Shown: one piece after another, positions 21,455 to 49,979 of the stretch
Layout of the letters: each line of letters begins with the position of its first letter
Position numbering within the stretch: the first letter of the stretch is position 1
Origin: Zobellia uliginosa
Lineage (GTDB): Bacteria > Bacteroidota > Bacteroidia > Flavobacteriales > Flavobacteriaceae
Direction of reading: 5' to 3'
Length of the DNA: 64,000 nt
Assembly (NCBI RefSeq): GCF_018860745.1
Contig: NZ_JAHKPY010000014.1
Coordinates: 248,001-312,000, forward strand
Translations under genes and position numbers: made by a program
Notes under the pieces: model-generated
Databases searched by the model: none
The model's input: only the letters and a program-made list of their open reading frames with translations
Told to the model about the DNA's origin: nothing

Positions 21455-21640
21455 TTCCTCCTTCTAAGATTGCTCTTGCAAAAACATTCGGTTGCTCAGA
21501 AAACTCATTTAAGTGCAAAAGTAAGGCTTTATTGTTATTATCGTAATTAAAACCATTAGTACAAAAAAGATTTATAATGCTATGAATAAAATAGCATTTT
21601 TACACTGACCTTATACTAAAAGTCTGCTCTAAGGTTTCAC

Positions 21641-24128: not shown

Positions 24129-24179
24129 CTAAAACCACATCTTAGGCAAATAAAAAAAAGATTTTATACCTATTGTCCA

Positions 24180-26613: not shown

Positions 26614-26633
26614 AATGCCAAATGTACAACATG

Positions 26634-27341
26634 CTAGTTTTTTGTAGCCTTTTCGTGTTTTTCCTCTATTATTGCTTTAGCAACCAACCAATCTAAAGGA
26701 GTGTCCAAATCATGCGAGGATATTTCATCCATTACATACTTGGCTCGTTTTGTAAATTCAGATAATCTTTTGCTTTTTAACGCCCTTACATTCATAATAT
26801 AAATTGCTCCGTTGAACTCCCATACTTGGGGGCAATCTTGCCTTCGTGAAAAGCTTCCTTTTTTGGAGTTCTGCAAATACCCTTGTTCGTTCTCTTCAAA
26901 AAGTACAAAGTAGGGGTTCGCTTTACTCTCGGAAACCGAAACCACCATTTCCAGTTCACTACTGGTTTCGTATAGTTTCATAGCTTCTTTAATATGCTGG
27001 GAAGATCTAAAGGGAGATGTAGGTTGTAAAAGGATAAGAACATCTGGATTATACCCAGTACTCTCTACATGTTCCAACGCATGTAGCAAGACCTCATAGG
27101 TGCCAGCAGAGTCTGACGCCAAGTTGGAGGGCCTTATGAACGGCACATTAAGACCAATAGTATTTACGACCGTTATGATTTTAGGGTCATCGGTAGAAAC
27201 TATAATCTCATTATCTTGAAACACTTCCCTAGCCGCCTTAATGGTATATTCAATTAACGGTTTCCCCCCTAATTTCTTTATGTTTTTACCGGGGATTCCC
27301 TTAGAACCCCCTCTTGCGGGAATTACGACCATTGGTTTCAT
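26634..27341 (-). CDS. legF: CMP-nonulosonate (N,N'-diacetyllegionaminate) cytidylyltransferase
   Basis: Activates a nonulosonic acid with CTP to the CMP-sugar used by transferases. The N-terminal motif IPARGGSKGIPGKNIK is diagnostic for the NeuA/PseF/LegF family. STDDPKI near residue 50, QPTSPFRSS near 105 and the DTPLDW C-terminal motif follow. The length of 235 is normal. Because LegB, LegC, LegH, LegG and LegI genes sit in the same operon, a legionaminic-type substrate is preferred over sialic acid. It overlaps the stop of ptmE by one base. Confidence 0.85.
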   Translation of the reverse strand: MKPMVVIPARGGSKGIPGKNIKKLGGKPLIEYTIKAAREVFQDNEIIVSTDDPKIITVVNTIGLNVPFIRPSNLASDSAGTYEVLLHALEHVESTGYNPDVLILLQPTSPFRSSQHIKEAMKLYETSSELEMVVSVSESKANPYFVLFEENEQGYLQNSKKGSFSRRQDCPQVWEFNGAIYIMNVRALKSKRLSEFTKRAKYVMDEISSHDLDTPLDWLVAKAIIEEKHEKATKN

Positions 27342-28387
27342 TAGAACTTAATTTGTTTGATGTCTTGTTGTGCTTTATTGTAATCTTCGTGTTTCCCCAC
27401 ATCCAACCAATACCCGGACAGTGGATATGAAATTACTTTTTTCTTTTCTGTTATTAACTTTTCCATAAAATCAGTTGCATTGAAAAAGCCTTCTTCAGGC
27501 AGATATTTCAATGCTGATCGCTTTATAAGGTAGATCCCTCCATTGGAATAATATGTGTAAGTTGGCTTTTCCCGTAAATTAAGAACATGCCCATTGTTGG
27601 TCTCTAAAACTGCGTAGGGAATATCAACCTTATAAGGGATAGTAACTACGGACAAATCTGCTTCTTGTTTAATAAAATCCAGAAAAAAATGTTCATAGTC
27701 CAAATTTGTGAGCACGTCAGAATTAGTAAGAAGCACATAGTCATGCCGGAAGTCCTTTATCTTAGAGACCGCTCCTATAGTGCCCAACGGTTCGTCTTCC
27801 CAGACATAGGAAATATGTACGTTCTTTATATCTCCGTTACCAAAATAATCCTCAATCTGGTTACCAAGATATTTAACGGAGACCCAAAAATCGTCTATTC
27901 CATAGAGAGTGAGCCTGTCCAAATTATGCTCCATAATAGGTTTATCTCCTACTTTGAGTAATGGCTTGGGAGTTTTTTCAGTCAAAGGCCTTAGCCGAGA
28001 TCCTTTGCCACCGGCCATAATTACCGCATCAACAGGCAAATATGACCTCATTGATCTGAAGTTTATAATGTTGACAATTTTATCGCTCTGATCAATTACT
28101 GGTAGAATCCTAAAGTGACCCTCTCTATATTCTATAATTTTTTCAATATTGCGCCCTCCTTTTCTAACGTATTTGGGGTCTTCCTGAATTACCTCATCTA
28201 CTAAGCTATTTACGGTTATGCCCCGAATAAGGCCTCTTCTGATATCGCCATCGGTCAATGAACCTATAAGCACGTCGTTTTTGTCAGCAACAAACAATAT
28301 GGCATCCTGCCCCAATTCGTTCAATCGTATGAGCGCCTGCTTGACACTGCTCCCAGATAAAATAATATGGTCTTTATAGCTTCTCAA
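27341..28387 (-). CDS. ptmE: CBS-domain sugar nucleotidyltransferase (PtmE-like), TTG start
   Basis: The N-terminal third (about residues 1-110) is a CBS-domain pair (AILFVADKNDVLIGSLTDGD); the rest is a NTP-transferase domain starting with MAGGKGSRLRPLTEKTPKP. This fusion matches PtmE of Campylobacter, which makes GDP-glucosamine for the GDP-linked legionaminic acid route. The start is TTG at 28387: the frame is closed by a stop just upstream and no ATG lies before the CBS fold. It overlaps legG by 14 bases. Its presence hints that the pathway uses GDP- rather than UDP-activated precursors. Confidence 0.75.
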   Translation of the reverse strand: MRSYKDHIILSGSSVKQALIRLNELGQDAILFVADKNDVLIGSLTDGDIRRGLIRGITVNSLVDEVIQEDPKYVRKGGRNIEKIIEYREGHFRILPVIDQSDKIVNIINFRSMRSYLPVDAVIMAGGKGSRLRPLTEKTPKPLLKVGDKPIMEHNLDRLTLYGIDDFWVSVKYLGNQIEDYFGNGDIKNVHISYVWEDEPLGTIGAVSKIKDFRHDYVLLTNSDVLTNLDYEHFFLDFIKQEADLSVVTIPYKVDIPYAVLETNNGHVLNLREKPTYTYYSNGGIYLIKRSALKYLPEEGFFNATDFMEKLITEKKKVISYPLSGYWLDVGKHEDYNKAQQDIKQIKF

Positions 28388-29549
28388 AATTAAAATTTGT
28401 TAGGTCGTAAAATGGTTTTTTCTTGTTTGTAAGATTAAAATTCTTTAATGGGCCAATTATTTTCTGCGTAGCATGGCCATCACCATAAATATGCTTCTGC
28501 TCCTGAATCTTAGTTTTAAATTCACTCTCTTTTGCTTTGCATATTGCGGAACTAATGGCTTCGGAATTGGGTGGGCAATTTATTACACTTTCAGGCATGA
28601 GCCGTCCTTTTTGCCTGTCTCCTATGTTGATAGTTGGTATATTAAAATAAGGTACTTCCAATATACCACTGGAAGAGTTTCCTATAACAAAGTCTACAAA
28701 TTGCAATGCAGAAAGATAACGTAATTGACCCAAGGAGGAAAACACGACCGCTCTTTCAGTATTCCTGCCAACATATTCATCAATCATTTTTACAATAATA
28801 CGGCCATCCTTATCCGAATTGGGCCTTGTAAAGATAAGGGTTGTGTTCTCAAGTGCATCCAAGGATATAAGCAGTTGCTCAAATTGTCTTTCGGCCGAAG
28901 CATTTTCCAAGGTAACTGGATGAAAGGTAATCAAAACCGAATATTGATCCAACTTTTTTGAAATGGATTCCTCAAACTTCGTTTTACCCAAAAGCTGCAG
29001 TTGGCGGATACTATCTATACCCAGTGCACCCACATTGAACACTTTGTTTGGATGCTCTCCCATTTGAATGATTCGTCTTCTATAGGCTTCGGTAGAAGCA
29101 AAGTGCAATCTGCTCATTTTGGTAATGGCATGCCTAATATATTCATCATAGGCCCCTTCTGTGGTCTCACCTCCATGAATATGGGCTACCGGTATAGTTG
29201 CAATTATAGCAGCTGTAACCACGGCTAAAATCTCACTACGATCCCCAAGAACAACTACTATATCTGGTTGTAGATTTACAAAAACGTTACCAAAACCCTT
29301 AATTGTATTTCCCATGGCTTCCGTAATTGCCTTAGGGGTATCATTTGTTAGAAAGTCTTCCACCTTTGCATGAATCACGAAACCATCTGCTTCAATTTCT
29401 TCGAAGGTGTTACCAAATTCGGGCATTAGGTGGGTTCCAGTGACCAACAACTGTAATTTCAGTTCCTTATCCTCATTAATGGCCTGAATCAATGGTTTTA
29501 ACAAGCCATATTCTGCCCTTGTTCCCGTTACTATGGCTATTTTTCTCAT
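28374..29549 (-). CDS. legG: Hydrolysing NDP-sugar 2-epimerase (NeuC/LegG)
   Basis: Removes the nucleotide and epimerises C2 of a diacetamido-trideoxy sugar to give the mannosamine-type precursor condensed by LegI. The N-terminal TGTRAEYGLLKPL and the HIHGGETTEGAYDEYIRHAITKMS region (residues about 125-148, shown in part) are typical of NeuC-type epimerases, distinct from the WecB type. NSSSGILE near 292 is the nucleotide-binding loop. The length of 391 is normal. Its ATG overlaps the legI stop by four bases. Confidence 0.87.
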   Translation of the reverse strand: MRKIAIVTGTRAEYGLLKPLIQAINEDKELKLQLLVTGTHLMPEFGNTFEEIEADGFVIHAKVEDFLTNDTPKAITEAMGNTIKGFGNVFVNLQPDIVVVLGDRSEILAVVTAAIIATIPVAHIHGGETTEGAYDEYIRHAITKMSRLHFASTEAYRRRIIQMGEHPNKVFNVGALGIDSIRQLQLLGKTKFEESISKKLDQYSVLITFHPVTLENASAERQFEQLLISLDALENTTLIFTRPNSDKDGRIIVKMIDEYVGRNTERAVVFSSLGQLRYLSALQFVDFVIGNSSSGILEVPYFNIPTINIGDRQKGRLMPESVINCPPNSEAISSAICKAKESEFKTKIQEQKHIYGDGHATQKIIGPLKNFNLTNKKKPFYDLTNFNFEKL

Positions 29550-30550
29550 ATTAGGTCGTCTTCCTCGTACATTTTAGTGGCTTTTGTACCCACTATCGCA
29601 TCCCATTTCATAGGTGATATACCCGTTCCTGGACGTTTAACCGTTAGGTTGCTTTCAGTAAATAAGCAACCCTTTTCTATTCGCGTTTTAGCAACTATGC
29701 TTTTTCTTGCTATCGCTTTGTTCTTGATTTCGCTAGGACTAGGTTCCTTTCGGCCATGTCCCAAGGCCTTTTCTATATTGCGAATAGCAGTAACCATGTC
29801 TTTTAATTCCTTGGGTTCTAAAGAGGCCTTATGGTCCGGGCCTTCCATATTATTGTCCAGTGTAAAATGTTTCTCAATTACGTTGGCACCCTTCGCCACA
29901 GCGGCAATAGAGACCTCTATTCCTAAAGTGTGGTCCGAATATCCATAGTTTACCGAAAACCTTTCGCCCATAGTATTCATCGCGTTAAGATTAACATCCT
30001 CTATGGGTGTTGGATACTCTGTATTGCAATGTAACACCGTAATATTATTTTGGGTCACTCCTTCCATATTTAATACGTTTAAGGCATCATCTACCTCCTT
30101 CATATCGGCCATGCCGGTAGAAATTATAATAGGTTTTTGGAATGAAGCTATTTTTCTTAAATATGGGAGGTTGGTTAATTCTCCGGAAGGGACTTTAAAA
30201 CACTCTATTCCTAGCTCATTTAAAAAATCCAGACTGTCCAGGTCAAAACCTGTAGACAAAAACTTGACACCCATATCCTTACAATACTCCAATAATTCAA
30301 GATGCATTTTTTTGGAAAGTTCCAATTTTTGGAGCATTTGAAATTGAGAATCCGTATTGTTTTTTGTATTTTCTTTTTGGTAATCTGCCTTTTGTGCTGA
30401 TTTTACCACTAATTTCTTGGCCTTAAAAGTTTGGAACTTTACATAATCAACTTTTGCATCTGCCGCCACATCAATCAGTTTTTTGGCCAAGGTCATATTC
30501 CCATTGTGGTTTACTCCCGCTTCCGCAATAATTATAACTTTGTTTTCCAT
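29546..30550 (-). CDS. legI: Nonulosonate (legionaminate/sialate) synthase with SAF domain
   Basis: Condenses phosphoenolpyruvate with the 6-deoxy-mannosamine derivative to make the nine-carbon acid. The N-terminal TIM barrel begins with AEAGVNHNG; KFQTFKAK near 40, STGMAD near 145 and NYGYSDHT near 203 are family motifs. The C-terminal SAF (antifreeze-like) domain starts around residue 280 (ARKSIVAKTRIEKG) and ends with KRPGTGISP. The length of 334 is normal. It is placed between legG and the acetyltransferase gene, with a one-base gap to the latter. Confidence 0.9.
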   Translation of the reverse strand: MENKVIIIAEAGVNHNGNMTLAKKLIDVAADAKVDYVKFQTFKAKKLVVKSAQKADYQKENTKNNTDSQFQMLQKLELSKKMHLELLEYCKDMGVKFLSTGFDLDSLDFLNELGIECFKVPSGELTNLPYLRKIASFQKPIIISTGMADMKEVDDALNVLNMEGVTQNNITVLHCNTEYPTPIEDVNLNAMNTMGERFSVNYGYSDHTLGIEVSIAAVAKGANVIEKHFTLDNNMEGPDHKASLEPKELKDMVTAIRNIEKALGHGRKEPSPSEIKNKAIARKSIVAKTRIEKGCLFTESNLTVKRPGTGISPMKWDAIVGTKATKMYEEDDLI

Positions 30551-30551
30551 T

Positions 30552-31181
30552 CTATCTCAATCTTTTTGCTGGGTTTCCTACATAAATTCCTTCTTCCAAA
30601 ATATCGCGGACAACAACAGAGCCTACGCCAATTATAACATCGTCACAAACCGTAATACCGGGTCTCACAACAGATCCGGCACCTACCAAAACATTCTTTC
30701 CTATGGACACATTGCCGGTTAGCACACTACCAGGAGCAATGTGCGAAAAATCACCAATTGTACATTCATGCTCAATAATGGCCCCAGTATTGATAATACA
30801 GGCATCACCTATTATCGATTTACTATTAACTACAGCTTTGGGAGCCACCAATGACGAATTACCAATAGAAGCCATTATAGATACGGAGGCACTTTTGTCA
30901 ATGAGAACAGTCTGCTCAATGGCCTGTTCTGTAAGCAACTGATACACTCTTTTTCGAATTTGGTTTGATCCTATAGCTGGAAATGCAACACCATTACCTA
31001 CAATTGAGGTGAGATCAAGCTTGTTTTCATCTCCTAGATAAGAAATTTGATATGGATTACTTTGTGCTTTCTGAAAATCAAAATAACCTTTTGGAACAAA
31101 CCCATTGCCTAAAGCAATATCTAAAACCACATAGGCATGACCTGAGTAACCTAATATATAGAGGCTTTTAAATTTTTGCAC
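30552..31181 (-). CDS. legH: Sugar O/N-acetyltransferase (LegH/PglD/NeuD-like), GTG start
   Basis: A left-handed beta-helix acetyltransferase. It has an N-terminal Rossmann-like subdomain (LYILGYSGHAYVVLD) that binds the nucleotide sugar, then hexapeptide repeats from about residue 95 (for example GNVSIGKNVLVGAGSVV). It should acetylate the 4-amino group made by LegC; a NeuD-type role cannot be excluded. The start is GTG at 31181, inside legC (14-base overlap); no ATG precedes the conserved first strand. Confidence 0.82.
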   Translation of the reverse strand: MQKFKSLYILGYSGHAYVVLDIALGNGFVPKGYFDFQKAQSNPYQISYLGDENKLDLTSIVGNGVAFPAIGSNQIRKRVYQLLTEQAIEQTVLIDKSASVSIMASIGNSSLVAPKAVVNSKSIIGDACIINTGAIIEHECTIGDFSHIAPGSVLTGNVSIGKNVLVGAGSVVRPGITVCDDVIIGVGSVVVRDILEEGIYVGNPAKRLR

Positions 31182-32307
31182 TGCTTGGTATATTTACGAC
31201 CCTTTCCTCCAGCCAAAGAGAATTTTCGAGATTAGCCTTCTGTGCATTCTTATATATATCAAGATTACTCATTAAGGTCCAAATTGGCCTTGTCATTATT
31301 CCATTATCATTAGTTTCCTTTAAAAACTTATTCCTGCTTTCTAAATCTTTTAAAATAATGGCATTTAGCCAATAATTGGCTCTAGAATTCTTGGGTTCAG
31401 TCACAAATTTTAGCTCCTTATTCCTAAAAAAATCTTCATATTTTTTTGCTAATATTTTTTTTGAAGAAAGAATTTTGTGCAAAACTTCCATTTGGGCACA
31501 CCCTAACGCCGCATTAATATTTGGCATCCTATAATTATAGGCAATTTCATCATGCTCAAAATTCCATCTGTGCGCAAGCTTTGCAGTAGTGGTGAGATGT
31601 TTCGCTTTTTGGGCTATCAAATCATTGTTAGTAATTATCATACCTCCACCACCGGTAGTAATTGTCTTGTTCCCGTTAAAACTTAAAACCCCTAAACTTC
31701 CAAATGTTCCTGTATGTTTGCCATTATAATAGCTGCCCAAAGATTCAGCGGAATCCTCAACAACTGTTATATTGAACTTATTACATACATTGTAAATTTC
31801 ATCCATTTTAATTGGTAATCCAAAGGTATGCATAGGAACTACAGCCTTGATCTTTCTATTGCTACGTTTATTAATGCACTCCCCATTAACCATCTTTGTT
31901 TCCTTGGACAAAAAAGATTCCAGTTTTTCCGGAGAAAGCCCCATGTTTTCCTTATCGACATCAACAAAGACGGGATTTGCCCCAATATAGCTTATCGCAT
32001 TACATGTGGCAACGAAAGTCAAGGCCTGGGTTATAACTTCTGTATCTGGTTCAACTCCTGCAAGTAGCAAAGCAATATGTAATGCGGATGTCCCGTTAAC
32101 GGTAGCCACGGCATGCTTAGCACCCGTAAATTTGGCAACCGCTACCTCAAAGCTGTCCACAAACTTACCAACGCTGGATACGAAAGTTGTATCTATACAT
32201 TGATTAAGATATTTTTTTTCGTTTCCTGTAAAACAAGGTTCGTGCAAAGGAATAAAATCCTCTGTTTGAAAGTGATTCCTAATAAATTCAATGGATTCAT
32301 TAATCAT
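31168..32307 (-). CDS. legC: DegT/DnrJ/EryC1 aminotransferase (LegC-like)
   Basis: PLP-dependent sugar aminotransferase that adds an amino group at C4 of the 4-keto-6-deoxy sugar from LegB. The PLP lysine is in SFNGNKTITTGGGG near residue 185; EDSAESLGSYY near 160 is the cofactor Asp region, and TVNGTSALHIALL near 68 is the typical phosphate-binding segment. The length of 379 is normal for LegC/PglE-type enzymes. It follows legB by six bases. Confidence 0.85.
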   Translation of the reverse strand: MINESIEFIRNHFQTEDFIPLHEPCFTGNEKKYLNQCIDTTFVSSVGKFVDSFEVAVAKFTGAKHAVATVNGTSALHIALLLAGVEPDTEVITQALTFVATCNAISYIGANPVFVDVDKENMGLSPEKLESFLSKETKMVNGECINKRSNRKIKAVVPMHTFGLPIKMDEIYNVCNKFNITVVEDSAESLGSYYNGKHTGTFGSLGVLSFNGNKTITTGGGGMIITNNDLIAQKAKHLTTTAKLAHRWNFEHDEIAYNYRMPNINAALGCAQMEVLHKILSSKKILAKKYEDFFRNKELKFVTEPKNSRANYWLNAIILKDLESRNKFLKETNDNGIMTRPIWTLMSNLDIYKNAQKANLENSLWLEERVVNIPSSAKI

Positions 32308-32313
32308 TGCTAT

Positions 32314-33501
32314 TTACATCTTTGCATCCAAATATTTTCCGGTCTCTTTATGTCCGAAATCCGGAATCATTTTAAAAAATAGATGCAGAATTTCGTCTTT
32401 GGACCATTGCCCTCTTTCTAGTAGTTCACGTATTAATGTTTCAAACATTAGAAGCTTATCATTATCATAAACGGGATCATTCTTAATAATCCCCAAGTTT
32501 TTGAACTTCTGCATGTCCAATTTTTCATCTTCCATAAAGAATTCCTCAAAATCCTTTTCTCCCGTAGTGTCGCTTGGGGTAAATAGACATGGCCATTTTT
32601 TTTCTTTAGGCAAAGTTTTAGTGAGTTCCCGCGCTTCATCCTCAGTTTTACAGAGGTAGGGCTCATAGCCTAGATTATTCAAATACTGCGTTGCTATATC
32701 AGCAAAAGAGATAAGATGTAAATCCTCACTAAGTTTAGGGAAAAAAATATCTCTGTTCTCACCAAAAATACATGACATGAGGCAAAGTTGCCCAGATTCC
32801 TTTGGAATGACAAAGTAGCGTTTTATATCGTTTGGGGCTACTATGGGCTGCATCTTTTGAATTCTTTTATCAAACCCATGAAGCAGGGAGCCATCAGAGA
32901 AAGCCACATTAGCAAATCGTGCTGTAGAAATCTTTATTTGAGAACTATAACGCATCAAAAACATTTCCATAATACGCTTAGAAGCCCCCATCATATTCAC
33001 AGGATTAGCGGCCTTATCGGTAGATACGCAGAAATATTTCTTTGTACCCTTTTTTATAGCATGCCCTAAGGTTTTGTTTGTATTCAAAATATTCACTTGA
33101 ATCATCCGCATTAGGGTGAAAGGGTCTTTCTCGCTTCTAACATGTTTTAAAGCAGACAGGTTAAGTATATAATCATATTGCCCATCACTTTCGATAAATG
33201 CGTCATATTCTACCGATCCTATATCTAATGCAAAAGTTCTGAAATCACCAGTTATATACCCAAAAGAACTTCTAACATCCCTAACAAGCTCAACCAAATT
33301 GTTTTCACTTATGTCAACAACATGAAGTTTTAACGGTTCTCTTTTAAAAATTTCTTTAGTAACGGCCTGGCCTATTGAACCAGCTCCGCCAATAACTAAA
33401 AAAGAAGAATTGGAAACAATTTCCTTTAGCTCCGTTTTATAATTACGTACATCTTCTAAAAACAACTCTTTATTCCTACCTATTAGGCTAAGTATATCCA
33501 T
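32314..33501 (-). CDS. legB: NDP-GlcNAc 4,6-dehydratase (LegB/PseB/CapD-like SDR)
   Basis: Extended SDR enzyme that opens the nonulosonate pathway by forming a 4-keto-6-deoxy sugar nucleotide. VIGGAGSIGQAV near residue 37 binds NAD(P), and ALKHVRSEKDP near 132 is the typical substrate segment. VSTDKAANPVNMMGASKR near 165 has the MxxxK variant of the catalytic motif seen in FlaA1/PseB-type enzymes. At 395 residues it is somewhat longer than PseB. It is the first gene of the leg operon; a promoter box lies 60 bases upstream. Confidence 0.82.
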   Translation of the reverse strand: MDILSLIGRNKELFLEDVRNYKTELKEIVSNSSFLVIGGAGSIGQAVTKEIFKREPLKLHVVDISENNLVELVRDVRSSFGYITGDFRTFALDIGSVEYDAFIESDGQYDYILNLSALKHVRSEKDPFTLMRMIQVNILNTNKTLGHAIKKGTKKYFCVSTDKAANPVNMMGASKRIMEMFLMRYSSQIKISTARFANVAFSDGSLLHGFDKRIQKMQPIVAPNDIKRYFVIPKESGQLCLMSCIFGENRDIFFPKLSEDLHLISFADIATQYLNNLGYEPYLCKTEDEARELTKTLPKEKKWPCLFTPSDTTGEKDFEEFFMEDEKLDMQKFKNLGIIKNDPVYDNDKLLMFETLIRELLERGQWSKDEILHLFFKMIPDFGHKETGKYLDAKM

Positions 33502-33561
33502 AATGAAATATATTCCATGAACTCAATCCTTATTAATTTAGAAGGTTTTTTCGGACTTAAA

Positions 33562-33569
33562 CAAAACTA
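33562..33569 (-). promoter_or_regulatory. Candidate -7 box for the leg operon (TAGTTTTG)
   Basis: TAGTTTTG on the minus strand matches TAnnTTTG and lies about 60 bases before legB in the only sizeable gap (255 bases) between wbpB and legB. No clear -33 box was found. Confidence 0.4.
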
Positions 33570-33756
33570 CAATAAAATTACCTACGACCATTGGCCAATC
33601 TAAAATTCTAGTATAAATATTCTGTTATGAAAAGCATATAACCTGAGCTACTTTCGCAAAATATTTTGTGTTCCACCAGCTGCTGTTTTCATAAGATTGT
33701 CTTGAATAGTCGAAGGAATATTCTCCTTATCGCATTAGTTGTTTTAAAAACTAAAC

Positions 33757-34698
<942 letters not shown>

Positions 34699-35793
34699 CT
34701 ATAAGTGTTTTATCAAATTTGAAGTTATATATTCTATTTCGTCGTTCGTTAAATATGGATTCATGGGAAGGCTCATTACCTCTGCGGCACAAGTTTCACT
34801 CACTGGAAAATCACCTTTTTTATGTCCCAAATAAGCAAAACACTCCTGTAAGTGCATAGGTATAGGATAATGAACTGCCGTAGGAACACCAGCTTCTTTT
34901 AGATGTGATTGAACCTGCTGCCTATTTTTAATCCTGATGGTATATTGTGCCCAGACCGATGTTCTATCTTCTTTCGTAAGAGGTGTAGGAACATGATTTT
35001 TTAACAATTGGGTGTACTTTATTGCTACATTCTGTCTTCGCTCAATATCTCTTTCATAATGCCGAAGTTTAATGTTTAGGATGGCAGCTTGAAGGTTGTC
35101 AAGTCTACCTCCCATTCCAATATATTTATGCGTGTAACGTTCTACCTGCCCGTGGACACGCATAGCCTTCATTTTATCATAAAGTTCTGCGTCTTGAGTA
35201 AAGACAGCTCCTCCATCGCCAAAACAACCCATTGGTTTTGCAGGAAAGAAACTAGTACAACCAATGGTTGATACCGAACAGCTCCGTTTTCCCTTATATA
35301 AGGCTCCAAAGCTTTGAGCTGCATCCTCTATTACCACTAAATTATGTTTGGCCGCAATAGTGTTAATCGCATCCATATCCGGCATTTGTCCATACAATGA
35401 AACCGGCATTATAGCCTTCGTTTTCTCGGTTATTGCATTTTCAATACGAGACGCATCAATATTGAAAGTTTCCTCTTCAATATCAACAAAAACAGGCTTA
35501 GCTCCTAAACAGGCTATTGTTTCTGCTGTTGCTATAAAGGTGAAAGGTGTCGTTATAATTTCATCTCCTGCGCGAATACCTAAAGCCATCAAGGCCAACA
35601 GTAGGGCATCAGTACCTGAAGATACCCCTAGAGCATAATTGCTTTTGACATAATTTTGCAAAGAAGCCTCAAATTCATCCGTTTCTTTACCCAAAATGTA
35701 GCGAGCAGAAGACATAACGTCCAAAGCTACTTTTTCAAATTCAGAACTATGTTCTTGATACGCCTTGGTCAAGTTTGCAAAATCGATTCTCAT
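34699..35793 (-). CDS. wbpE: DegT-family aminotransferase, WbpE/WlbC type
   Basis: PLP-dependent transaminase that aminates the 3-keto group made by WbpB. The internal aldimine lysine lies in SFFPAKPMGCFGDGG near residue 185; EDAAQSFGA near 157 and SSGTDALLLAL near 58 are the expected cofactor motifs. The length of 364 and a position between wbpB and wbpD match known wbp/wlb clusters. The stop is followed immediately by the wbpB ATG. Confidence 0.88.
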   Translation of the reverse strand: MRIDFANLTKAYQEHSSEFEKVALDVMSSARYILGKETDEFEASLQNYVKSNYALGVSSGTDALLLALMALGIRAGDEIITTPFTFIATAETIACLGAKPVFVDIEEETFNIDASRIENAITEKTKAIMPVSLYGQMPDMDAINTIAAKHNLVVIEDAAQSFGALYKGKRSCSVSTIGCTSFFPAKPMGCFGDGGAVFTQDAELYDKMKAMRVHGQVERYTHKYIGMGGRLDNLQAAILNIKLRHYERDIERRQNVAIKYTQLLKNHVPTPLTKEDRTSVWAQYTIRIKNRQQVQSHLKEAGVPTAVHYPIPMHLQECFAYLGHKKGDFPVSETCAAEVMSLPMNPYLTNDEIEYITSNLIKHL

Positions 35794-35809: not shown

Positions 35810-36391
35810 TTATTTCACACGGATAACCTCATGGTCCTCCAATTTATATTCTTGACCACTTTCAGGACATATGGCAAGATTATTTTTATTAAATTCAAGA
35901 CGATGTCCGTATTCACCAACCCAACCTATTTGCCTACCAGGATTACCTACAACAAGCGCATAATTAGGAACTTCTTTGATTATCACAGACCCTGCACCGA
36001 TTAAGCAGAATTTACCTAGGGCATTGCCACAAACAATGGTTGCATTAGCGCCTACTGAAGCACCCTGTTTAACAAGCGTCTCTTGATAGCTGTCACGACG
36101 AATAATGGCACTTCTTGGATTCATAATATTAGTAAATACCATTGAAGGGCCCAGAAAAACATCGTCTTCACAAACAACACCAGTATATATTGAGACATTA
36201 TTCTGAACCTTTACATTGTTGCCCAAAACCACTTGCGGAGAGACAACTACGTTCTGACCAATATTACATCTTTCACCAATTTTACAATCGGACATAATAT
36301 GTGAAAAATGCCATATTTTAGTTCCCTCCCTTATATCACAACCATCATCAATAACGGCAGTTTCATGTGCAAAAAAAGTATTAGAAGACAT
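35810..36391 (-). CDS. wbpD: UDP-2-acetamido-3-amino-uronate N-acetyltransferase (WbpD/WlbB)
   Basis: Hexapeptide-repeat acetyltransferase that acetylates the 3-amino group to give UDP-GlcNAc(3NAc)A. The N terminus FFAHETAVID, then GTKIWHFSHIM, is characteristic of WbpD/WlbB. The left-handed helix runs through most of the protein, and NIMNPRSAI near residue 107 is the family loop. The length of 193 is normal. The first 25 codons have a clear but diverged relic copy at 43935-44063. Confidence 0.9.
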   Translation of the reverse strand: MSSNTFFAHETAVIDDGCDIREGTKIWHFSHIMSDCKIGERCNIGQNVVVSPQVVLGNNVKVQNNVSIYTGVVCEDDVFLGPSMVFTNIMNPRSAIIRRDSYQETLVKQGASVGANATIVCGNALGKFCLIGAGSVIIKEVPNYALVVGNPGRQIGWVGEYGHRLEFNKNNLAICPESGQEYKLEDHEVIRVK

Positions 36392-40651: not shown

Positions 40652-42337
40652 CTATGAATTAAAAATTTGTTCTAATATTTTTTCAGTAATCAAATATGTT
40701 GGCTTAACTCCTGTTGTACCCAAACCTCCTGAAGCTAGGGTGCTACCAGTTTCTAACGGATTATCCGATGCGTAATAAGCGTAGCGCACTTTTATATCCT
40801 CTCGCACGCTCTTTCGTATTTTAGAAGCGGACTGTACTGCTTTTTGATAGTGAACTCCTTCCATTTCCAGACCAACTACGTTCCATGTAGATTGGTGAAA
40901 AAACTTCAAAACGTCCTTATTTTGAAGCGAAGTCCCTAAAACGGTAACCATGGTTCCCTCAAATACTTTTAGTCCGTGTCCTTTGAAGTCCTCTGCACAC
41001 AATTCGTTCTCGAAAGGGTAGTTATCTGCAGTACCTTCAAAAATATGTGCTGAAGGAATCATTAAATCTCCTTTACCACCTTCAAGTATACCCGCTTTTC
41101 CCATAATTGAAATTGAAGCAACATCCAAAAAAACCGATTTATCTCCTTTCACCTTGTAGGGTTTTAAAAATTCATCAATAGTCTCATATGCCTGTTCTCC
41201 AAAAGCATAGTCCATAACAAAGATTACCGGCTTTTCTTCATCTGGCATCTCTTTGGGTAGTTGGTAACAACATGCCTTGGCCGCCATCTGAGCCGTATCA
41301 AATAATTGTACGTCTATATTCGTACCCGAAAGATCATCTATTGCAATCATTCCATTCTCGGTAGCTATCTTAGTTACTTTTGCCCGTAGTTCAACGTTTG
41401 AAGAAGAACTTAATGCCTCATATATTTTTAAAGATTCAGCACCGGAAAACTCTTTTGTTAATGCGTTCTTCGCAAAAAGTGAATTCATAACACTGTGCAT
41501 ATTTGCGCTAATGATATGAATGGGACGATGCAACAGTCCGTTTTTCTTTAAAACTTCCTTTATGGTATCTGCCCAACGTTCTCCGTGAATGTGGTGGCCT
41601 AGGCGTTCCCGAAGTAAGGCACTGAAGGTAATAGCTCTTTTCTCTCCGGTTATTTCTTCTTCGATTGCCAATTTACCCAACCAGTATACTATTTCTAGAA
41701 AGCGATCAGGTTGTTCTTCTGTAGAAAATTGCTCATGAACGGCCATAATTTCAATGAAAGACCGTCCTAGGATATTTGCCGTATGGATAACTGCAACTTC
41801 TCTTTCGGCTAATGTCAATTCATCTTTATTTACAGCTTCTTCTAACTTCGTCCAATCTCTAATAGTACGGTCTGTATCTTCAATCAATACCCTTTTACAG
41901 ATTTTCTCAGATTCAATAAAAAGAAAAGTTAAGTGGGTAAGAATATCATAAATATCAGAACGCCCCCGAGTAATCTCGATGTTCATTTGCTCTTCATCTA
42001 TACGATAGCAATTTCTACGACGTTTGGGTGGTACTATTGGATCAAAATGAGATTTACCATAACCCTCATCAGAGGTTAAATTGATAAAACGACATTGTTC
42101 AATACCTTTAGGCAGACGTTCCAGAACATAAATCAGTCCGCTAAGTTCTGCTTTTTCTTCAGCTATAGAACCATAAATTTCAGGTCTTAACTGCAAAAGC
42201 GCATTCTTCAATGATTCACCTGATACACCTGTAGGTTTATAAAAACCCCGGTTAAAAAGGTGTCGCATCGTTATATATAAACGCTCAATAGCATTAGTTG
42301 ATTCTTGAGCTCGAGTAGTGGTGGTTGTATTGCCCAT
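40652..42337 (-). CDS. DUF6909-type protein with nucleoside-phosphorylase-like C-terminal part
   Basis: A cytoplasmic protein of about 561 residues from the ATG at 42337 (MGNTTTTT). I recall this family from Bacteroidota as DUF6909; no function is established. The N-terminal half is helical and conserved-looking. The C-terminal part has short motifs reminiscent of purine nucleoside phosphorylase/AMP nucleosidase: GKAGILEGGKGDLMIPSA near residue 420 and VVGLEMEGVHY near 505 (the MEG that contacts ribose in phosphorylases). It starts the long transcript running through rml, with a promoter box just upstream and a terminator before it. Confidence 0.6.
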   Translation of the reverse strand: MGNTTTTTRAQESTNAIERLYITMRHLFNRGFYKPTGVSGESLKNALLQLRPEIYGSIAEEKAELSGLIYVLERLPKGIEQCRFINLTSDEGYGKSHFDPIVPPKRRRNCYRIDEEQMNIEITRGRSDIYDILTHLTFLFIESEKICKRVLIEDTDRTIRDWTKLEEAVNKDELTLAEREVAVIHTANILGRSFIEIMAVHEQFSTEEQPDRFLEIVYWLGKLAIEEEITGEKRAITFSALLRERLGHHIHGERWADTIKEVLKKNGLLHRPIHIISANMHSVMNSLFAKNALTKEFSGAESLKIYEALSSSSNVELRAKVTKIATENGMIAIDDLSGTNIDVQLFDTAQMAAKACCYQLPKEMPDEEKPVIFVMDYAFGEQAYETIDEFLKPYKVKGDKSVFLDVASISIMGKAGILEGGKGDLMIPSAHIFEGTADNYPFENELCAEDFKGHGLKVFEGTMVTVLGTSLQNKDVLKFFHQSTWNVVGLEMEGVHYQKAVQSASKIRKSVREDIKVRYAYYASDNPLETGSTLASGGLGTTGVKPTYLITEKILEQIFNS

Positions 42338-42351
42338 AAACAAATTTCAAC

Positions 42352-42359
42352 CAAAATTA
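42352..42359 (-). promoter_or_regulatory. Promoter -7 box before the DUF6909 gene (TAATTTTG)
   Basis: TAATTTTG on the minus strand lies 14 bases before the ATG at 42337. From here genes run with gaps under 20 bases down to wbpB, so it may drive DUF6909, the Wzz-like gene, rmlBACD and wbpDEB. Confidence 0.5.
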
Positions 42360-42434
42360 CGATAATTTTTCCAGTAGTACGAATGCGATTTTTCCCTGAT
42401 AAATTGCGTAATTTCTGATCAGCTCTTAGAAATA

Positions 42435-42462
42435 ACAAAGGCCTCTATTGAGGCCTCTTTTC
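42435..42462 (-). terminator. Hairpin terminator after the epimerase gene
   Basis: AGGCCTC-TATT-GAGGCCT is a perfect stem with a four-base loop flanked by T-rich sequence on both strands. It lies 57 bases after the epimerase stop and separates that transcript from the DUF6909 operon. Confidence 0.75.
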
Positions 42463-42518
42463 TTAACTTGCAACTAAGTGAGCTTTGAAATCGAATATAG
42501 GTCTGCTGAAAGCACGAC

Positions 42519-43568
42519 CTAATTCAAAAATTGTAAAATACCACCTACCATTTTCGAAGCGCTATTTCCATCACCATATAAGGTGTCATTCCATGATTTC
42601 GGTGTTTTTTTAATCTCATCTTGTAATGTAGATAAATTATCAAACAACAGAATATTTGCGTCATCGATGAGTGTTTCTTTCCACTCTGTTTCTTTTCGAA
42701 TCGTAACGCATTTCTTCTTAAGCCAGAAAGCTTCTTTCTGCATACCTCCACTATCGGTAATTAGCCCCTCCGAACCTTGTAAGTATCCTAAATTAGAAAA
42801 ATAAGATTGTGGTTCTATAAAGTTGATATTTGAGTAGTCATCTAAATTTAACCTATAACTAGCTGCTAAATTCTTAGTTCTAGGATGCAGGGAGAAAATA
42901 ACTTTTTTATCCAAGTGATTAAGAACATCTAAAATATACCCAAGCCTGTCTTTATTATCCGTATTGTAAGGCCTATGTATCGTGGTATAATAATAGTTTT
43001 TCTCTTTTGGTGTATGATTGCTCAACAAATTGTTTTTGGTTACGTATTGAACTAAATCCTTCATTATATCACCCACCTCAAACACACCTTGTTCAATACC
43101 CTCGCTCTTCAAGTTTTGCACAGCAATAGCACTAGGAACAAATAATAAATCTGAAATGTGATCTGTTAATACACGATTTACCTCTTCAGGCATTTTCTTA
43201 TTAAAACTTCTTAAGCCTGCTTCAATATGAAATATGGGTATGTGCAGTTTTGATGCAACCAATGCGCCAGCCAAAGTTGAATTTGTATCTCCATAAATAA
43301 CAACTCCATCTGGTGTTGCCCTGTTTATAATCTTTTCTATTTCAATCATCATTTTTCCAGTCTGCTCACCATGAGCTCCACTACCGACATGTAATGTATA
43401 GTTTGGCGTGCTCATTTTAAGTTGAGTGAAAAATACTTCGCTCATATTATCATCATAATGCTGACCGGTATGTATTGTTATAAGCTCAACTTTATCCTTA
43501 CATGCCAATTCAAAAGGGAAATGCTTGATAAATTGGGGTCTAGCTCCAATTATAGCTACTATTTTCAT
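42519..43568 (-). CDS. wbpI: Non-hydrolysing UDP-sugar 2-epimerase (WbpI or WecB)
   Basis: A GT-B-fold epimerase of the WecB/WbpI group. It has IIGARPQFIKHF at the N terminus, TGQHYDDNMS near residue 36, HIEAGLRSF near 120, PEEVNRVLTDHISD near 131 and SGGMQKEAFW near 266. It converts a UDP-GlcNAc-type sugar to the manno form. With wbpB, wbpE and wbpD in the locus, and relics of wbpB and wbpD directly upstream, the likeliest role is WbpI (UDP-2,3-diacetamido-glucuronate 2-epimerase). WecB is the alternative. Its ATG overlaps the stop codon of the wbpB relic (ATGA). Confidence 0.8.
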   Translation of the reverse strand: MKIVAIIGARPQFIKHFPFELACKDKVELITIHTGQHYDDNMSEVFFTQLKMSTPNYTLHVGSGAHGEQTGKMMIEIEKIINRATPDGVVIYGDTNSTLAGALVASKLHIPIFHIEAGLRSFNKKMPEEVNRVLTDHISDLLFVPSAIAVQNLKSEGIEQGVFEVGDIMKDLVQYVTKNNLLSNHTPKEKNYYYTTIHRPYNTDNKDRLGYILDVLNHLDKKVIFSLHPRTKNLAASYRLNLDDYSNINFIEPQSYFSNLGYLQGSEGLITDSGGMQKEAFWLKKKCVTIRKETEWKETLIDDANILLFDNLSTLQDEIKKTPKSWNDTLYGDGNSASKMVGGILQFLN

Positions 43569-43726
43569 GTTATTTTTTTTAAAGAAGGGTGGTAATCATC
43601 AATTACATCTACTGGTCTAAAATTATTTGCCTTAAATAAATTTTAAAAAATCAGTGAAAATCTCTGTATTTCTATCTTTTCAAATTCTATATGACCAGAT
43701 GTTACGCTAAGTGCGAAATTTTTCAT
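43565..43726 (-). pseudogene. Relic of a second wbpB (5' and 3' ends joined)
   Basis: The minus-strand frame from 43726 begins with MKNFAL, identical to intact wbpB; 18 bases around the start (TAGATGAAAAATTTCGCA) match exactly. After about 27 codons there is a TAA. In the same frame a segment RPVDVIDDYHPSLKK follows, aligning with the wbpB C terminus [15 protein letters not shown]. Its TGA overlaps the epimerase ATG. The roughly 54-codon relic therefore retains both ends of a 313-codon gene with the middle deleted. Confidence 0.7.
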
Positions 43727-43934
43727 CTAGACTACTTAAACGTTTTCGAAACTAAATATTCTTTACATTTTTATCGTATGTATTTCGTCAATTCCCCTGA
43801 TTAATTAGATGATAAGTCTTTTCCAAGAGAAAATCTCTATAAATTATGGAAGTATATGTATTTGGAGTTGTATTTTTTCCAAACTACGTTCAAATCTTGA
43901 GAGATTGGAGGAAACGTTAGGTAAGACGGGGTAA
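43727..43934 (-). other. Degenerate stretch between relics, possible wbpE remnants
   Basis: In the intact copy wbpE sits between wbpD and wbpB. Here about 200 bases remain. A fragment KEYLVSKTFK before a stop resembles the wbpE C terminus IEYITSNLIK, and VVWKKYN could echo SVWAQYT. The matches are short and need frame changes, so I give them low weight. Confidence 0.3.
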
Positions 43935-44063
43935 CTAATAAATTTTATCACTTTTATTTCCGAACGCTTTCGTGACAAACCTGAAGGTTTTGGTTCCAGC
44001 ACCTATAACACAATTATCATCTATTACTGCGCTTTCATGGGCAAAAAAGTTGTTGGTCTGCAT
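43935..44063 (-). pseudogene. Relic of a second wbpD (5' end only)
   Basis: The minus-strand frame from the ATG at 44063 gives 42 codons. The first 25 match intact WbpD at 17 positions, including FFAHE, AVIDD and GTK, then the sequence departs (FRFVTKAF instead of WHFSHI) and ends at TAG. The divergence shows an old or horizontally derived copy rather than a recent duplication. Confidence 0.75.
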
Positions 44064-44149
44064 ATTTAAGGTATATGATAATTTTGTTTAGAAATACTTT
44101 TAAACTGATTTTATAATTGTTCGGCACAATAACAAAATACCAATTAGTA

Positions 44150-45649
44150 TTAATTCTTTTTGAAAGAAGATAAACCATCTGCAACCTTTCGGTCATTGGC
44201 TAATCTTTGAACCTTATTCTGACCGCCCAATTTACCTATAGATTTCATATAGGCATTAAAACCGCCTTCAGTTATACTTGTTACTTTTAAAGTTTGAAGC
44301 ACCTTGCCTTCAATTAAGTCAAAATAATAGCTATTTTGCTTTTGTAATGAACTGTCTAAAATACCTATAAATTTATCCATATCTGTTGGTTGGTTTTCAA
44401 ACTCTACAAACCATTCATGATAAGGCAATTCATTTCCTTTTGGCGTAATTTGTGGTGCTACTGTAAATTCATTAATGCTTGCACCAGTTTCTTTAACAGC
44501 TAATTGCATGGCTTCTTCTACTTCCTTGGCAATTACATGTTCCCCAAAAGCTGATATAAAATGTTTGATACGTCCTGATACAATTACTTTATAAGGCCTT
44601 AAGGAAATAAACTGAACGGTATCTCCCAAGTTGTACGCCCACAGTCCGGCATCTGTAGAGATGATCATTACGTAGTTTACATTAAGCTCTACGTCCCTGA
44701 TTGTTAGGCGCTTTGGATTCTCATCAAAAAACTCATCCGCCTTCACAAATTCATAGAAAATTCCCGAATTCAATAAGAGAAGCATTCCATTATCTTTCTG
44801 GGAATCTTGATACGCAAAGAAGCCTTCACTCGCCGGAAATAGCTCTATACTATCTACTTTCCTACCAATTAACCCTTCAAATTTGGCGCGGTAAGGTTCA
44901 TAGTTCACTCCCCCGTAAATAAATAGTTGAAAATTCTTGAACAAATCACCAACCTTTTTGCCGGACCTATCTTCTAATTTTTCAAAATACATTTGTACCC
45001 AAGAGGGTATGCCTGCGATAACGGTCATGTCCTCATTCATAGTCTCATCAACGATGGTATTGACCTTGGTTTCCCAATCTTCAATACAATTGGTTTCCCA
45101 GCTTGGCAATCGATTTTTTTGTAAATAGTTTGGTACGTAATGGGCCGATATTCCTGAAAGACGACCCAGTTTGACGCCATTTTTTTCAGTCAACTCCGGA
45201 CTCCCTTGCAGAAAAATCATCCGACCGGTTACAAAATCCGCATTTCCCGTTTCATCAATGTAATTTAAAATAGCATTCCGCGATGCGTTTACCTGGTGTT
45301 TTATAGAAGTGTCGGTAATTGGAATGTACTTTGCCCCAGAGGTTGTTCCAGAAGTTTTTGCAAAATAAATTGGCTTTCCTGGCCAAAGAATATCTTCTTT
45401 TCCTGCAACCACTTCTTCCACATATGGTTTCAAAGCTTCATAGTCTCTAATAGGGACTCTTTTTATAAAATCCTCATGAGATTGTATCTTTTTAAACTCG
45501 TGATCCTTCCCAAATTTTGTAGTGCTAGCTTTTTCAATTAGTTGTAAAAATACCTTATCCTGCGCAACTATGGGATTATCTCTCCATTTTGCAGTTTGTT
45601 TCGCAATACGTTTCGCAAATATTTTGGCTGCTAGTGATTTGATTGACAT
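44150..45649 (-). CDS. GH3 auxin-responsive promoter family protein
   Basis: A 499-residue member of the GH3 superfamily of ANL adenylating enzymes, which in plants conjugate amino acids to acyl acids; bacterial members are uncharacterised. The ATP-binding motif FAKTSGTTSGAKYIP is near residue 95, IYGGVNYEPYRAKFEGL near 243, and LFPASEGFFAYQD near 271 (the adenine-binding acidic motif). The C-terminal GRIKHFISAFGEHV near 360 is also family-typical. It stands alone between the polysaccharide locus and an M23 peptidase. Confidence 0.9.
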   Translation of the reverse strand: MSIKSLAAKIFAKRIAKQTAKWRDNPIVAQDKVFLQLIEKASTTKFGKDHEFKKIQSHEDFIKRVPIRDYEALKPYVEEVVAGKEDILWPGKPIYFAKTSGTTSGAKYIPITDTSIKHQVNASRNAILNYIDETGNADFVTGRMIFLQGSPELTEKNGVKLGRLSGISAHYVPNYLQKNRLPSWETNCIEDWETKVNTIVDETMNEDMTVIAGIPSWVQMYFEKLEDRSGKKVGDLFKNFQLFIYGGVNYEPYRAKFEGLIGRKVDSIELFPASEGFFAYQDSQKDNGMLLLLNSGIFYEFVKADEFFDENPKRLTIRDVELNVNYVMIISTDAGLWAYNLGDTVQFISLRPYKVIVSGRIKHFISAFGEHVIAKEVEEAMQLAVKETGASINEFTVAPQITPKGNELPYHEWFVEFENQPTDMDKFIGILDSSLQKQNSYYFDLIEGKVLQTLKVTSITEGGFNAYMKSIGKLGGQNKVQRLANDRKVADGLSSFKKN

Positions 45650-47330: not shown

Positions 47331-49979
47331 ATGAAAAAACTAATAACCGCCTTTATTTTTCTTTTGTCCCTAGGTAGTTTTGCCCAAGACTTTGAAAATA
47401 TAGACTCAGAAGAAATTGTAAATTCTACAGAGACTGAAACTGAAACGGTCAGCTTTAGCCCAGTTGCAGCTGAAACCTTTTCAATAAACGAAACTTTTGA
47501 AGAGGCCGCTGACAGGCTTGAAATTCCGCATAGAACTTTTAGTGGTCTTACGGGTACGGAAAATGGTTACTATATCATATCGGGTGTTTTCAGTAAAGAG
47601 AAAACATTAAATAAAGCTCTTAAGAAACTAAGCAAAAAAGGCTTTGACTCTGCAGGCTATATCTTCAACCCGCAAAATGATTTAAACTATGTGTATTTAG
47701 CATATTATCCATTTGGTTTGGAAGCGGTAGATGCTTGCGCTTCAAATCTAGATGATCGTTATACAGATGATAAATGGATATTAGAGATTGAGGATAGTGT
47801 TGCAATAGGGGGAGAGGAAGTTGATTTAAACGAGGAGGCCGAGTCTATACAAAATGGTATAGCACCATTGGAAGCCGTAACGGAAAATTCTGGGGTTTCG
47901 GAACTTTCAACAATAGAAAAAGAAGTAGAGGTGTTGGAAGCTACACAAACAGAACCTGCTATTCCAACTGTGGCAGCTGCCATTCCTGAAACTGAAATAG
48001 AGACTGAAATAGAGACTGAATTGGAAACAGAGTTGGAGACAAAAACACCAATTACCACAATCTCTGAAACTGCTAACAAAACAAAACTACTACAGCGCGC
48101 TGATCATTATTTTGATAAAATGTGGTACTCAGAGGCTGCCGACCTTTATGAACAGGCATTAGAAAAAGGAGGCAAGAACCGCTCTAGAGACGTCATTCAA
48201 AAAACTGCCGATGCTTACTACTTCAACACAAATATGGAAAAAGCATATGAGTGGTATAATGTTCTTTACGACAACTACGGGAAAGAGATGTCTTCAGAGA
48301 ACATATTCAAATATGCTCATTCTTTGAAAGGCACGGGTAAGTACGCAAGATCAAAACGTCTTATGCGTCTTTACAATAAGAAAATGAAAGATGCACCTGC
48401 AGGCGAATTGGCAAGTAACGTCCAAGAGAGCGAAAGTGCGTTGGACAATATTCTTAATTCTAAGAAAGATTATGAAATAAAGAACTTGGCTGTAAACACA
48501 GAATATTCTGATTTCGCTCCCATGTTTTTAGATTCTAATCAAGTTGTATTTTCATCTGCAAAGGATTCTTCATTTTTTAGTACCAGACGGTATAAATGGA
48601 ATGATCAACCTTATCTAGATTTGTATGTTGCGAAAGTAAACGAAGAATCTGATGACCTTAAAAATGCACTTAAATTTTCTAAAAAGATAAACACGAAATA
48701 CCATGAAGCATCGGTAACTTTTTCACCGGATAATAGCACCATGTATTTTACGCGTAACAATTACGGGAAAAAATTAAAGAGAGATGATAAAGGTGTTAAT
48801 CACCTTAAGATTTATAAATCTACCAAAGTAGATACGGAATGGACGGAAGCTGTTGAAGTACCTTTTAATAGTGATAACTATTCTACAGGTCACCCAGCTT
48901 TGAGCCCAGACGGAAAACAATTATACTTTGTTTCTGATATGCCAGGCAGTCTAGGTAAAACAGATATTTTTGTTGTGGATGTTATGGAAGACGGTGGTTT
49001 TACAGCACCTAGAAACCTGGGGCCAACTATCAACACGGAACAACGTGAAATGTTTCCTTTCTTTAATGGAACTAAAATGTATTTTTCATCTGACGGATTT
49101 TCCGGTCTAGGCGGTCTGGATGTTTATGAAAGTACTTTTGATGAAGAAGAAGGGTTTGCAGAAGTTAAAAACCTGGGTCAACCAGTTAATAGCAATAAAG
49201 ACGATTTTTCATATATCGTTAATGAAGAGAACCAACAAGGTTACTTTGCTTCTAACAGAGAAGGTGGTAAGGGTGATGATGATATTTACTCTTTTAAGCG
49301 TTTAATTGTAGAAGAAATTCCTGAAAACAATAATGCTATTGCGGGTGTAGTTACTGAAATGGTAACTGGTGATATCATGCCACAAACTTTAGTTCAGCTT
49401 TTAGACGAAAACGGCATTAAGCTTAAAGAGATGGCTAGCGAAGATGACGGAAGCTTTATTTTCGAAGATTTAAACGATTCTACTCAATACACTTTAAAAA
49501 CTGTTCAAGAGAAATTTGTAGACAATGAAAGGTTAGTAACGACTACTGTTAATGATACTATTAAAGTTGATATTGCCATGAAGCGCCTTGAAGAAATGAT
49601 CGCTATTGAAGATGGCATCAAGAAAATCAAGACTGAAATGATTTACTTCAACTTTGACAAATCTTACATTAGGCCTGACGCAGCCAAGGAGTTGGATAAG
49701 CTAGTTAGTGTTATGAAAGAATTCCCAACTATTGTAATCAAAGTTGAATCACATACGGATTCACGTGGAACCAAGGCTTATAACGAGTACTTATCCGATA
49801 AGAGAGCGAAATCTACCAGAGACTACATTATATCTCAAGGTATTGATGCTAGCCGTATAGAAAGTGCTACTGGTTACGGAGAAAATAGATTGTTAAATGA
49901 TTGTGATGGATCATCACCTTGTTCTGAAGCTGATCACTTGTTAAACAGAAGATCAGAGTTCATTATTCTAAATATGTAA
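47331..49979 (+). CDS. PorE-like OmpA-family protein with SPOR-like, TPR and PD40 regions
   Basis: A secreted envelope protein of 882 residues. The order is a signal peptide ending FAQ, a SPOR-like domain (about 70-150, GYYIISGVFSKEK), an acidic Glu/Thr-rich linker (about 155-245), TPR-like helices (about 253-340) and WD40/PD40 beta-propeller repeats (about 385-655). A carboxypeptidase-regulatory-like domain (about 670-745) and a C-terminal OmpA domain follow (about 770-880), with NFDKSYIRPDA and ESHTDSRG for peptidoglycan binding. The TPR-PD40-CRD-OmpA layout is that of PorE of the type IX secretion/gliding system. The usual PorP/SprF neighbour is absent. Confidence 0.85.
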   Translation: MKKLITAFIFLLSLGSFAQDFENIDSEEIVNSTETETETVSFSPVAAETFSINETFEEAADRLEIPHRTFSGLTGTENGYYIISGVFSKEKTLNKALKKLSKKGFDSAGYIFNPQNDLNYVYLAYYPFGLEAVDACASNLDDRYTDDKWILEIEDSVAIGGEEVDLNEEAESIQNGIAPLEAVTENSGVSELSTIEKEVEVLEATQTEPAIPTVAAAIPETEIETEIETELETELETKTPITTISETANKTKLLQRADHYFDKMWYSEAADLYEQALEKGGKNRSRDVIQKTADAYYFNTNMEKAYEWYNVLYDNYGKEMSSENIFKYAHSLKGTGKYARSKRLMRLYNKKMKDAPAGELASNVQESESALDNILNSKKDYEIKNLAVNTEYSDFAPMFLDSNQVVFSSAKDSSFFSTRRYKWNDQPYLDLYVAKVNEESDDLKNALKFSKKINTKYHEASVTFSPDNSTMYFTRNNYGKKLKRDDKGVNHLKIYKSTKVDTEWTEAVEVPFNSDNYSTGHPALSPDGKQLYFVSDMPGSLGKTDIFVVDVMEDGGFTAPRNLGPTINTEQREMFPFFNGTKMYFSSDGFSGLGGLDVYESTFDEEEGFAEVKNLGQPVNSNKDDFSYIVNEENQQGYFASNREGGKGDDDIYSFKRLIVEEIPENNNAIAGVVTEMVTGDIMPQTLVQLLDENGIKLKEMASEDDGSFIFEDLNDSTQYTLKTVQEKFVDNERLVTTTVNDTIKVDIAMKRLEEMIAIEDGIKKIKTEMIYFNFDKSYIRPDAAKELDKLVSVMKEFPTIVIKVESHTDSRGTKAYNEYLSDKRAKSTRDYIISQGIDASRIESATGYGENRLLNDCDGSSPCSEADHLLNRRSEFIILNM
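47988..48042 (+). repeat. In-frame degenerate 12-base repeats (Glu-Thr linker)
   Basis: The unit GAAATAGAGACT occurs twice in tandem, followed by diverged GAATTGGAAACA and GAGTTGGAGACA units, encoding alternating ETEIE/ETELE residues. Such tracts can expand or contract without breaking the frame. Confidence 0.7.

Follow-up and report, generated by a model that had tools for sequence, protein, structure and literature searches.

Remains of a second wbp gene cluster in front of a wbpI-type epimerase gene in Zobellia uliginosa

In the 64 kb stretch of DNA from the marine bacterium Zobellia uliginosa analysed here (hereafter the window), intact wbpD (35810..36391), wbpE (34699..35793) and wbpB (33757..34698) genes are found on the minus strand in one place, the main locus, and an intact gene encoding a wbpI-type UDP-sugar 2-epimerase of 349 residues, for which a search of the genome at E 1e-3 gave no second match, is located on the same strand at 42519..43568. 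This arrangement raises the question of what once stood in front of the epimerase gene, and of how the genes of one putative pathway came to lie in two places. The start of the epimerase gene at 43568 is separated from the upstream gene, which ends at 44150, by 581 bp on the minus strand, and it was originally predicted that this spacer contains decayed copies of wbpD and wbpB left by an ancestral wbpD-E-B-I operon, which the intact wbpDEB genes 7 kb away would have replaced. Pieces of three genes were identified on the minus strand of the interval 43569-44149: the beginning of wbpD comes first, followed by a 3'-terminal part of wbpE and then by the two ends of wbpB, which preserves the gene order and leads directly up to the intact wbpI. 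A relic of a second wbp cluster is therefore real and well supported, since it combines gene-order similarity above chance with broken frames and with intact wbpD and wbpB genes at the same site in relatives, as found in pseudogene remnants. The site is bordered by two conserved genes, both on the minus strand: an upstream gene (44150..45649), which we take to be GH3-like, and an unnamed downstream gene of 563 codons (40652..42343).

All pieces of the relic lie on the minus strand. The wbpD piece comprises the start and the first ~25 codons (44063-43988; whole frame 43935..44063), beyond which the frame shows no further similarity and ends at a stop at 43935. The peptide read from 44063 is identical to the window's own WbpD at 17 of 25 residues, exactly as predicted, and the next best 25-mer in the six frames of the window reaches 8; likewise, tblastn of WbpD on the window finds the site at E 8e-8, and a whole-genome protein search with WbpD lists it at E 1.2e-4, covering WbpD residues 1-29. 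Then follows a stretch of ~140 bp without detectable homology (43848..43987), which displays borderline matches only and no match above the maximum of 200 shuffles. The wbpE piece (43727..43836) aligns with the 3' end of the main-locus wbpE copies; the wbpE scraps suspected at this position thus correspond to ~100 bp of the 3' end and to no other part of the gene. The relic wbpB starts with an ATG at 43726 and retains its first ~13 codons (43689..43726), and TAGATGAAAAATTTCGCA in the relic agrees at 18 of 18 positions with the junction between the wbpE stop and the wbpB start of the intact cluster. The remaining body of wbpB is lost (43622..43688); a putative GHIEFEK scrap, a candidate for the middle of wbpB at 43640-43690, does not exceed the range of shuffles and was rejected. 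The 3' end of wbpB (RPVDVIDDYHPSLK; 43570..43621) adjoins wbpI. The frames are broken or mostly deleted, with stops in all minus frames, and the 581 bp of the window compare with 1864 bp between the same two genes in one sister species (G002) and with 1842 bp in another (G004), the latter measured from the point where two inserted genes end.

In order to place the relic, nine Zobellia genomes, including that of the window (G000), were searched. Both site-flanking genes were found in all eight congeners, where their orthologues flank the site, and in two of these, the sister species G002 and G004, intact wbpD, wbpB and wbpI genes are present at the site in the order wbpD (193 codons), 224 bp, wbpB (312 codons), 12 bp and wbpI, with two additional genes between the upstream flank and wbpD in G004. 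The prediction that a wbpD-(E)-B set once stood beside the epimerase gene is borne out by these intact genes; a full ancestral set with wbpE is unseen, however, wbpE being already a remnant in both sisters. In the same way, the frame of the wbpB tail in the window does reach a stop that overlaps the ATG of the epimerase gene, as noted previously, but this overlap is not ancestral, for in both sisters 12 bp separate the end of wbpB from the wbpI ATG. The distance from one flanking gene to the other is just 137-155 bp in the remaining six congeners; no wbp relic was detected there by tblastn at E 1e-2, and blastn of these spacers against the sister site at E 1e-2 returned nothing in five of the six, the remaining match (27/38, E 0.004, between the 155 bp spacer of G008 and the G002 site) being taken as chance. 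Both the protein and the DNA trees of six flanking genes unite G000, G002 and G004 in one clade with 100/100 support, so that a single origin of the secondary cluster suffices. The second-best wbpB match in G002 and G004 is 29-30% identical and the second-best wbpD match is partial. Between these two genomes dN/dS amounts to 0.18 for wbpD, 0.04 for wbpB and 0.05 for wbpI, and the three genes are under purifying selection; the value for wbpD exceeds that of other wbpD pairs (0.06-0.11), which we count against our explanation.

The continuous stretch from the wbpE end to the wbpB start aligns to the sister sites at 127 of 159 positions in G004 (80%, E 4e-36) and at 119 of 148 in G002. Within this alignment the wbpE remnant is identical to each sister at 88 of 110 positions and the wbpB start at 31 of 39. 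The end of wbpB matches at 23 of 28 bases in G004 and 21 of 27 in G002, with a score of 17 against a shuffle maximum of 15 (n=200) for the former and of 14 against 15 for the latter. Both ends of wbpB are present and in the intact gene order, as had been claimed. The wbpD head, in turn, agrees at 47 of 61 bases with the window's own wbpD, 44 with G002, 43 with G004 and 48 with G257, a genome of another genus; it is too short to be placed and, taken alone, does not favour the sisters.

The 110 bp that precede the start of the relic wbpB resemble each sister more closely than do the four-fold sites of six genes (39-56%, G000 versus the sisters), which raises the possibility that the stretch from the wbpE end to the wbpB start was kept as a leader or promoter for wbpI and is not mere debris, and the wbpD-wbpB gap, in which G002 and G004 differ at 5 of 224 bases, points in the same direction. 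Nevertheless, identities of 62-91% were also measured between these genomes for eight ordinary spacers in the vicinity, the low divergence between G002 and G004 extends into part of wbpD, as in a recombination tract, and the relic contains neither a Bacteroidota-type promoter motif nor an Rfam match up to E 1, which makes such a role unlikely. An Rfam scan of 42300-44300 gave two matches up to E 1, both below the gathering score and both outside the relic. The interval that leads from the upstream gene to wbpI contains no terminator-like site, and the expression of wbpI would be explained most simply by read-through out of that gene. On the 3' side of wbpI a GC-rich hairpin, terminator-like on both strands, is located at 42437-42458, and a sub-threshold Rfam match to Atu_C8 at 42352-42472 (E 0.0046, 28.5 versus 50 bits) is probably just this hairpin.

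Alternatively, the wbpDEB genes of the main locus could recently have been copied in part to the site beside wbpI, where the copy then decayed, and the wbpD head is, in fact, slightly closer to the own wbpD than to either sister. This origin is very improbable, however, given that the collinear chain score of the relic is 66 to the own cluster versus 146 to the G002 site and 133 to the G004 site, that the wbpE remnant gives a much better alignment with the sister sequences, with which it has in common an insertion that is missing from the main-locus copies, and that the sisters carry their genes in the same position. In 200 shuffles for each of these three comparisons the maximum scores were 55 (own wbpDEB), 60 (G002) and 50 (G004), and the real score was never reached. 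Chance similarity in an AT-rich spacer is refuted by these shuffles, by the E value of the alignment with G004 and by the distance between the WbpD match and the next best 25-mer, even though some individual pieces, the wbpB middle among them, do not rise above chance and the G008 spacer illustrates the level that chance can attain.

The order in which the genes of the second cluster decayed can be read in part from wbpE. In the 224 bp gap between wbpD and wbpB of G002 and G004 the 3' end was the only part of wbpE that could be detected; the insertion mentioned above, of ~19 bp, is shared by the remnants of the window and both sisters and is absent from the main-locus copies, as read by eye from the alignment. 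A wbpE orthologue was not found elsewhere in G002 or G004, where the best match is a core aminotransferase with 42% identity. Since the same remnant occurs in three species and no other wbpE was found in the sisters, the gene was most likely lost at the secondary site before the window species, G002 and G004 separated.

The prediction that the main-locus genes replaced the second cluster finds less support. At the main locus wbpD-E-B follows rmlD in six of the eight congeners, G002 and G004 having no wbpDEB there. Four outgroup genera were fetched, and three of them (G018, G257 and G202) display the same order, the fourth (G261) having wbpD-wbpB in the same place without wbpE; in Hyunsoonleella pacifica (L059) the order is rmlA-C-D-wbpD-E-B-I. 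Judged by this distribution, the place of the main locus is the inherited one and the cluster at 43.5-44.1 kb is secondary, unlike in the history originally proposed. In the wbpB tree the branch of the G002 and G004 copies, which adjoins the main-locus copies, is longer (0.11). Exchange has nevertheless probably affected part of the main locus, because the window and G005 are identical at 249 of 357 four-fold sites (70%) in rmlC, rmlD, wbpD and wbpE versus 440 of 1051 (42%) in six flanking genes (Fisher p 5e-20, for genes picked after the table had been seen), which argues that rmlC-wbpE was recently exchanged, inside the genus, with a G005-like relative. The four-fold matches of rmlB are also high (79/108 with G003 and 69/103 with G005). 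Main-locus wbpB, in contrast, with 51 of 106 matches to G005 and 55 of 106 to G001, carries no exchange signal, and recent import alone therefore does not suffice to account for the redundancy of the second wbpB. A wbpI relic behind main-locus wbpB, at 33502-33756, was sought by tblastn and no match was obtained at E 1e-2. The adjoining interval of the window, 26634-33501, is occupied by a complete-looking cassette for a nucleotide sugar of the legionaminic or sialic type, with LegC-, NeuD- and NeuB-type genes identified by NCBIfam and others by eye; in G005, G006 and G008 the corresponding place holds wbpI and a different gene set.

Based on these observations, we hypothesize that a second wbp cluster was already present, between the 44150-45649 and 40652-42343 genes, in the progenitor that the window species shares with G002 and G004, and that wbpE was the first of its genes to erode, at a time when the three lineages had not yet diverged. 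The sisters possess no other close wbpD or wbpB, and their second-cluster copies of these genes remained intact. For the window species, wbpD, wbpE and wbpB would be supplied by the main locus, so that the second wbpD and wbpB would have become redundant and have mostly been lost by internal deletions, whereas wbpI, absent from the main locus, would have been kept at the secondary site. We have good confidence in this history as a whole, and redundancy is the probable cause of the decay of the second wbpD and wbpB. The presence of wbpD, wbpE and wbpB at the main locus, we infer, goes back in part to exchange. The working pathway would consequently be split, with WbpD, WbpE and WbpB encoded at 33.8-36.4 kb and WbpI at 42.5-43.6 kb, and its product would probably be UDP-ManNAc(3NAc)A.

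The early erosion of wbpE may be viewed against the distribution of this gene in the family. A search of 299 genomes gave 45 wbpB matches in 44 genomes, and the best 30 of the 45 loci, three of them from Zobellia including that of the window, were inspected: 11 have both wbpD and wbpE, a further one has wbpE at the very edge of the inspected stretch, in 10 wbpD is the immediate neighbour of wbpB and wbpE is missing, and eight have neither gene within 1.5 kb. The ten loci without wbpE between wbpD and wbpB are L145, L146, L147, L152, L153, L158, L160, L161, L163 and L167, and the best relative of wbpE in these ten genomes is 40-44% identical. Zobellia likewise possesses a relative of wbpE, the core aminotransferase gene (42-44% identical), beside a galE-like gene labelled by eye, and the encoded enzyme might stand in for WbpE. 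As a partner specific to the wbp genes the core aminotransferase is weakened by its presence (E 1e-100) in 53 of 60 relatives, wbpB (E 1e-90) being found in 23 of the same 60, and it is therefore a general gene that is not tied to the wbp genes. A rule in which loss followed backup, with wbpE going first as another aminotransferase stood in for it, wbpD and wbpB going where the main locus supplies them, and wbpI kept for want of a substitute, is a tentative and rather doubtful idea; we counted the ten wbpE-less loci as fitting it, on the assumption that their 40-44% identical relatives are orthologous to the core gene.

Another point concerns the identity of the epimerase. Its best solved relative is 8sxv, a UDP-2,3-diacetamido-2,3-dideoxy-glucuronic acid-2-epimerase (299 bits), followed by 4neq, a UDP-GlcNAc 2-epimerase (287), and 1f6d, which we take to be E. 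coli WecB, scores 98 bits. The NCBIfam model TIGR00236 (wecB) matches at 253.7 bits with a cut-off of 210.15. The gene is linked to wbpB/D/E genes in all five close Zobellia copies and in L059 and L060, the epimerases of which group with those of Zobellia (96/98 support), and in L061 it is linked to wbpB; the more distant relatives L062, L063, L064, L067 and L100 are found without wbp linkage. The wbp-linked nearest relatives and the tree favour, without proving it, an assignment as WbpI (UDP-GlcNAc3NAcA 2-epimerase), in agreement with the original prediction; the match to the wecB model and the score of 4neq, almost equal to that of 8sxv, count against it. The four-fold identity of the window wbpI is 45-47% to G002 and G004, close to the value for flanking genes, and 31-34% to G005, G006 and G008, the difference between G002 and G005 having p 0.07. 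Against our explanation we count this p value and the WbpI protein tree, in which G002 and G004 stand with G005, G006 and G008 apart from G000 (82/84). The wbpI DNA of G005 is 97% identical to that of G006 and G008 and the two site-flanking genes of these genomes merely 77-80%, and this part of the locus has likely been exchanged recently. The legionaminic or sialic-type cassette seems to have an epimerase of its own at 28374-29549, as suggested by the place of this gene and by a weak match to WbpI (23%, E 4e-4), and it need not, therefore, use wbpI.

Deletion-ridden gene ends remain at polysaccharide loci after the turnover of surface-sugar genes, and the relic described here is ordinary in kind and unusually readable, for it differs from such pseudogene remnants in general in that two sisters with a nearly whole set reveal part of the order of loss. 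It offers a clear example of the swapping and loss of surface-polysaccharide genes in bacteria, by which a surface-sugar pathway appears to have been split over two sites, and it is of use for annotating the locus and for naming the epimerase. The frequent absence of wbpE from the side of wbpD and wbpB in the family also raises the question of which aminotransferase performs the WbpE step. An intact wbpD-E-B-I order is present in G005, G006 and G008. Five wbp genes have been reported in Zobellia galactanivorans (PMC4031482). These genes and the Wbp pathway of Pseudomonas aeruginosa (WbpA, B, E, D and I) represent the same enzyme set as that considered here; the window differs in that its working genes lie at two sites and that a second set survives as a relic. 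In Porphyromonas gingivalis, which belongs to the same phylum, the wbp genes are not in one cluster either (PMC4031482, PMC7468200), but within what these two accounts relate no wbpI homologue was found in that species, whereas in the window wbpI is the surviving gene. A literature search, mostly of open-access sources, gave no title on this relic among the matches listed, of which only PMC4031482 combines Zobellia, wbp and lipopolysaccharide. Elsewhere in the window, no comparably large frame is seen at the place that matches two very large open frames of outgroup genomes, which are located near the orthologue of the gene at 47331-49979 and comprise 2731 aa in G257 (L171, 5197-13392) and 2864 aa in G202 (L173 and L174 joined, 21050-29644).
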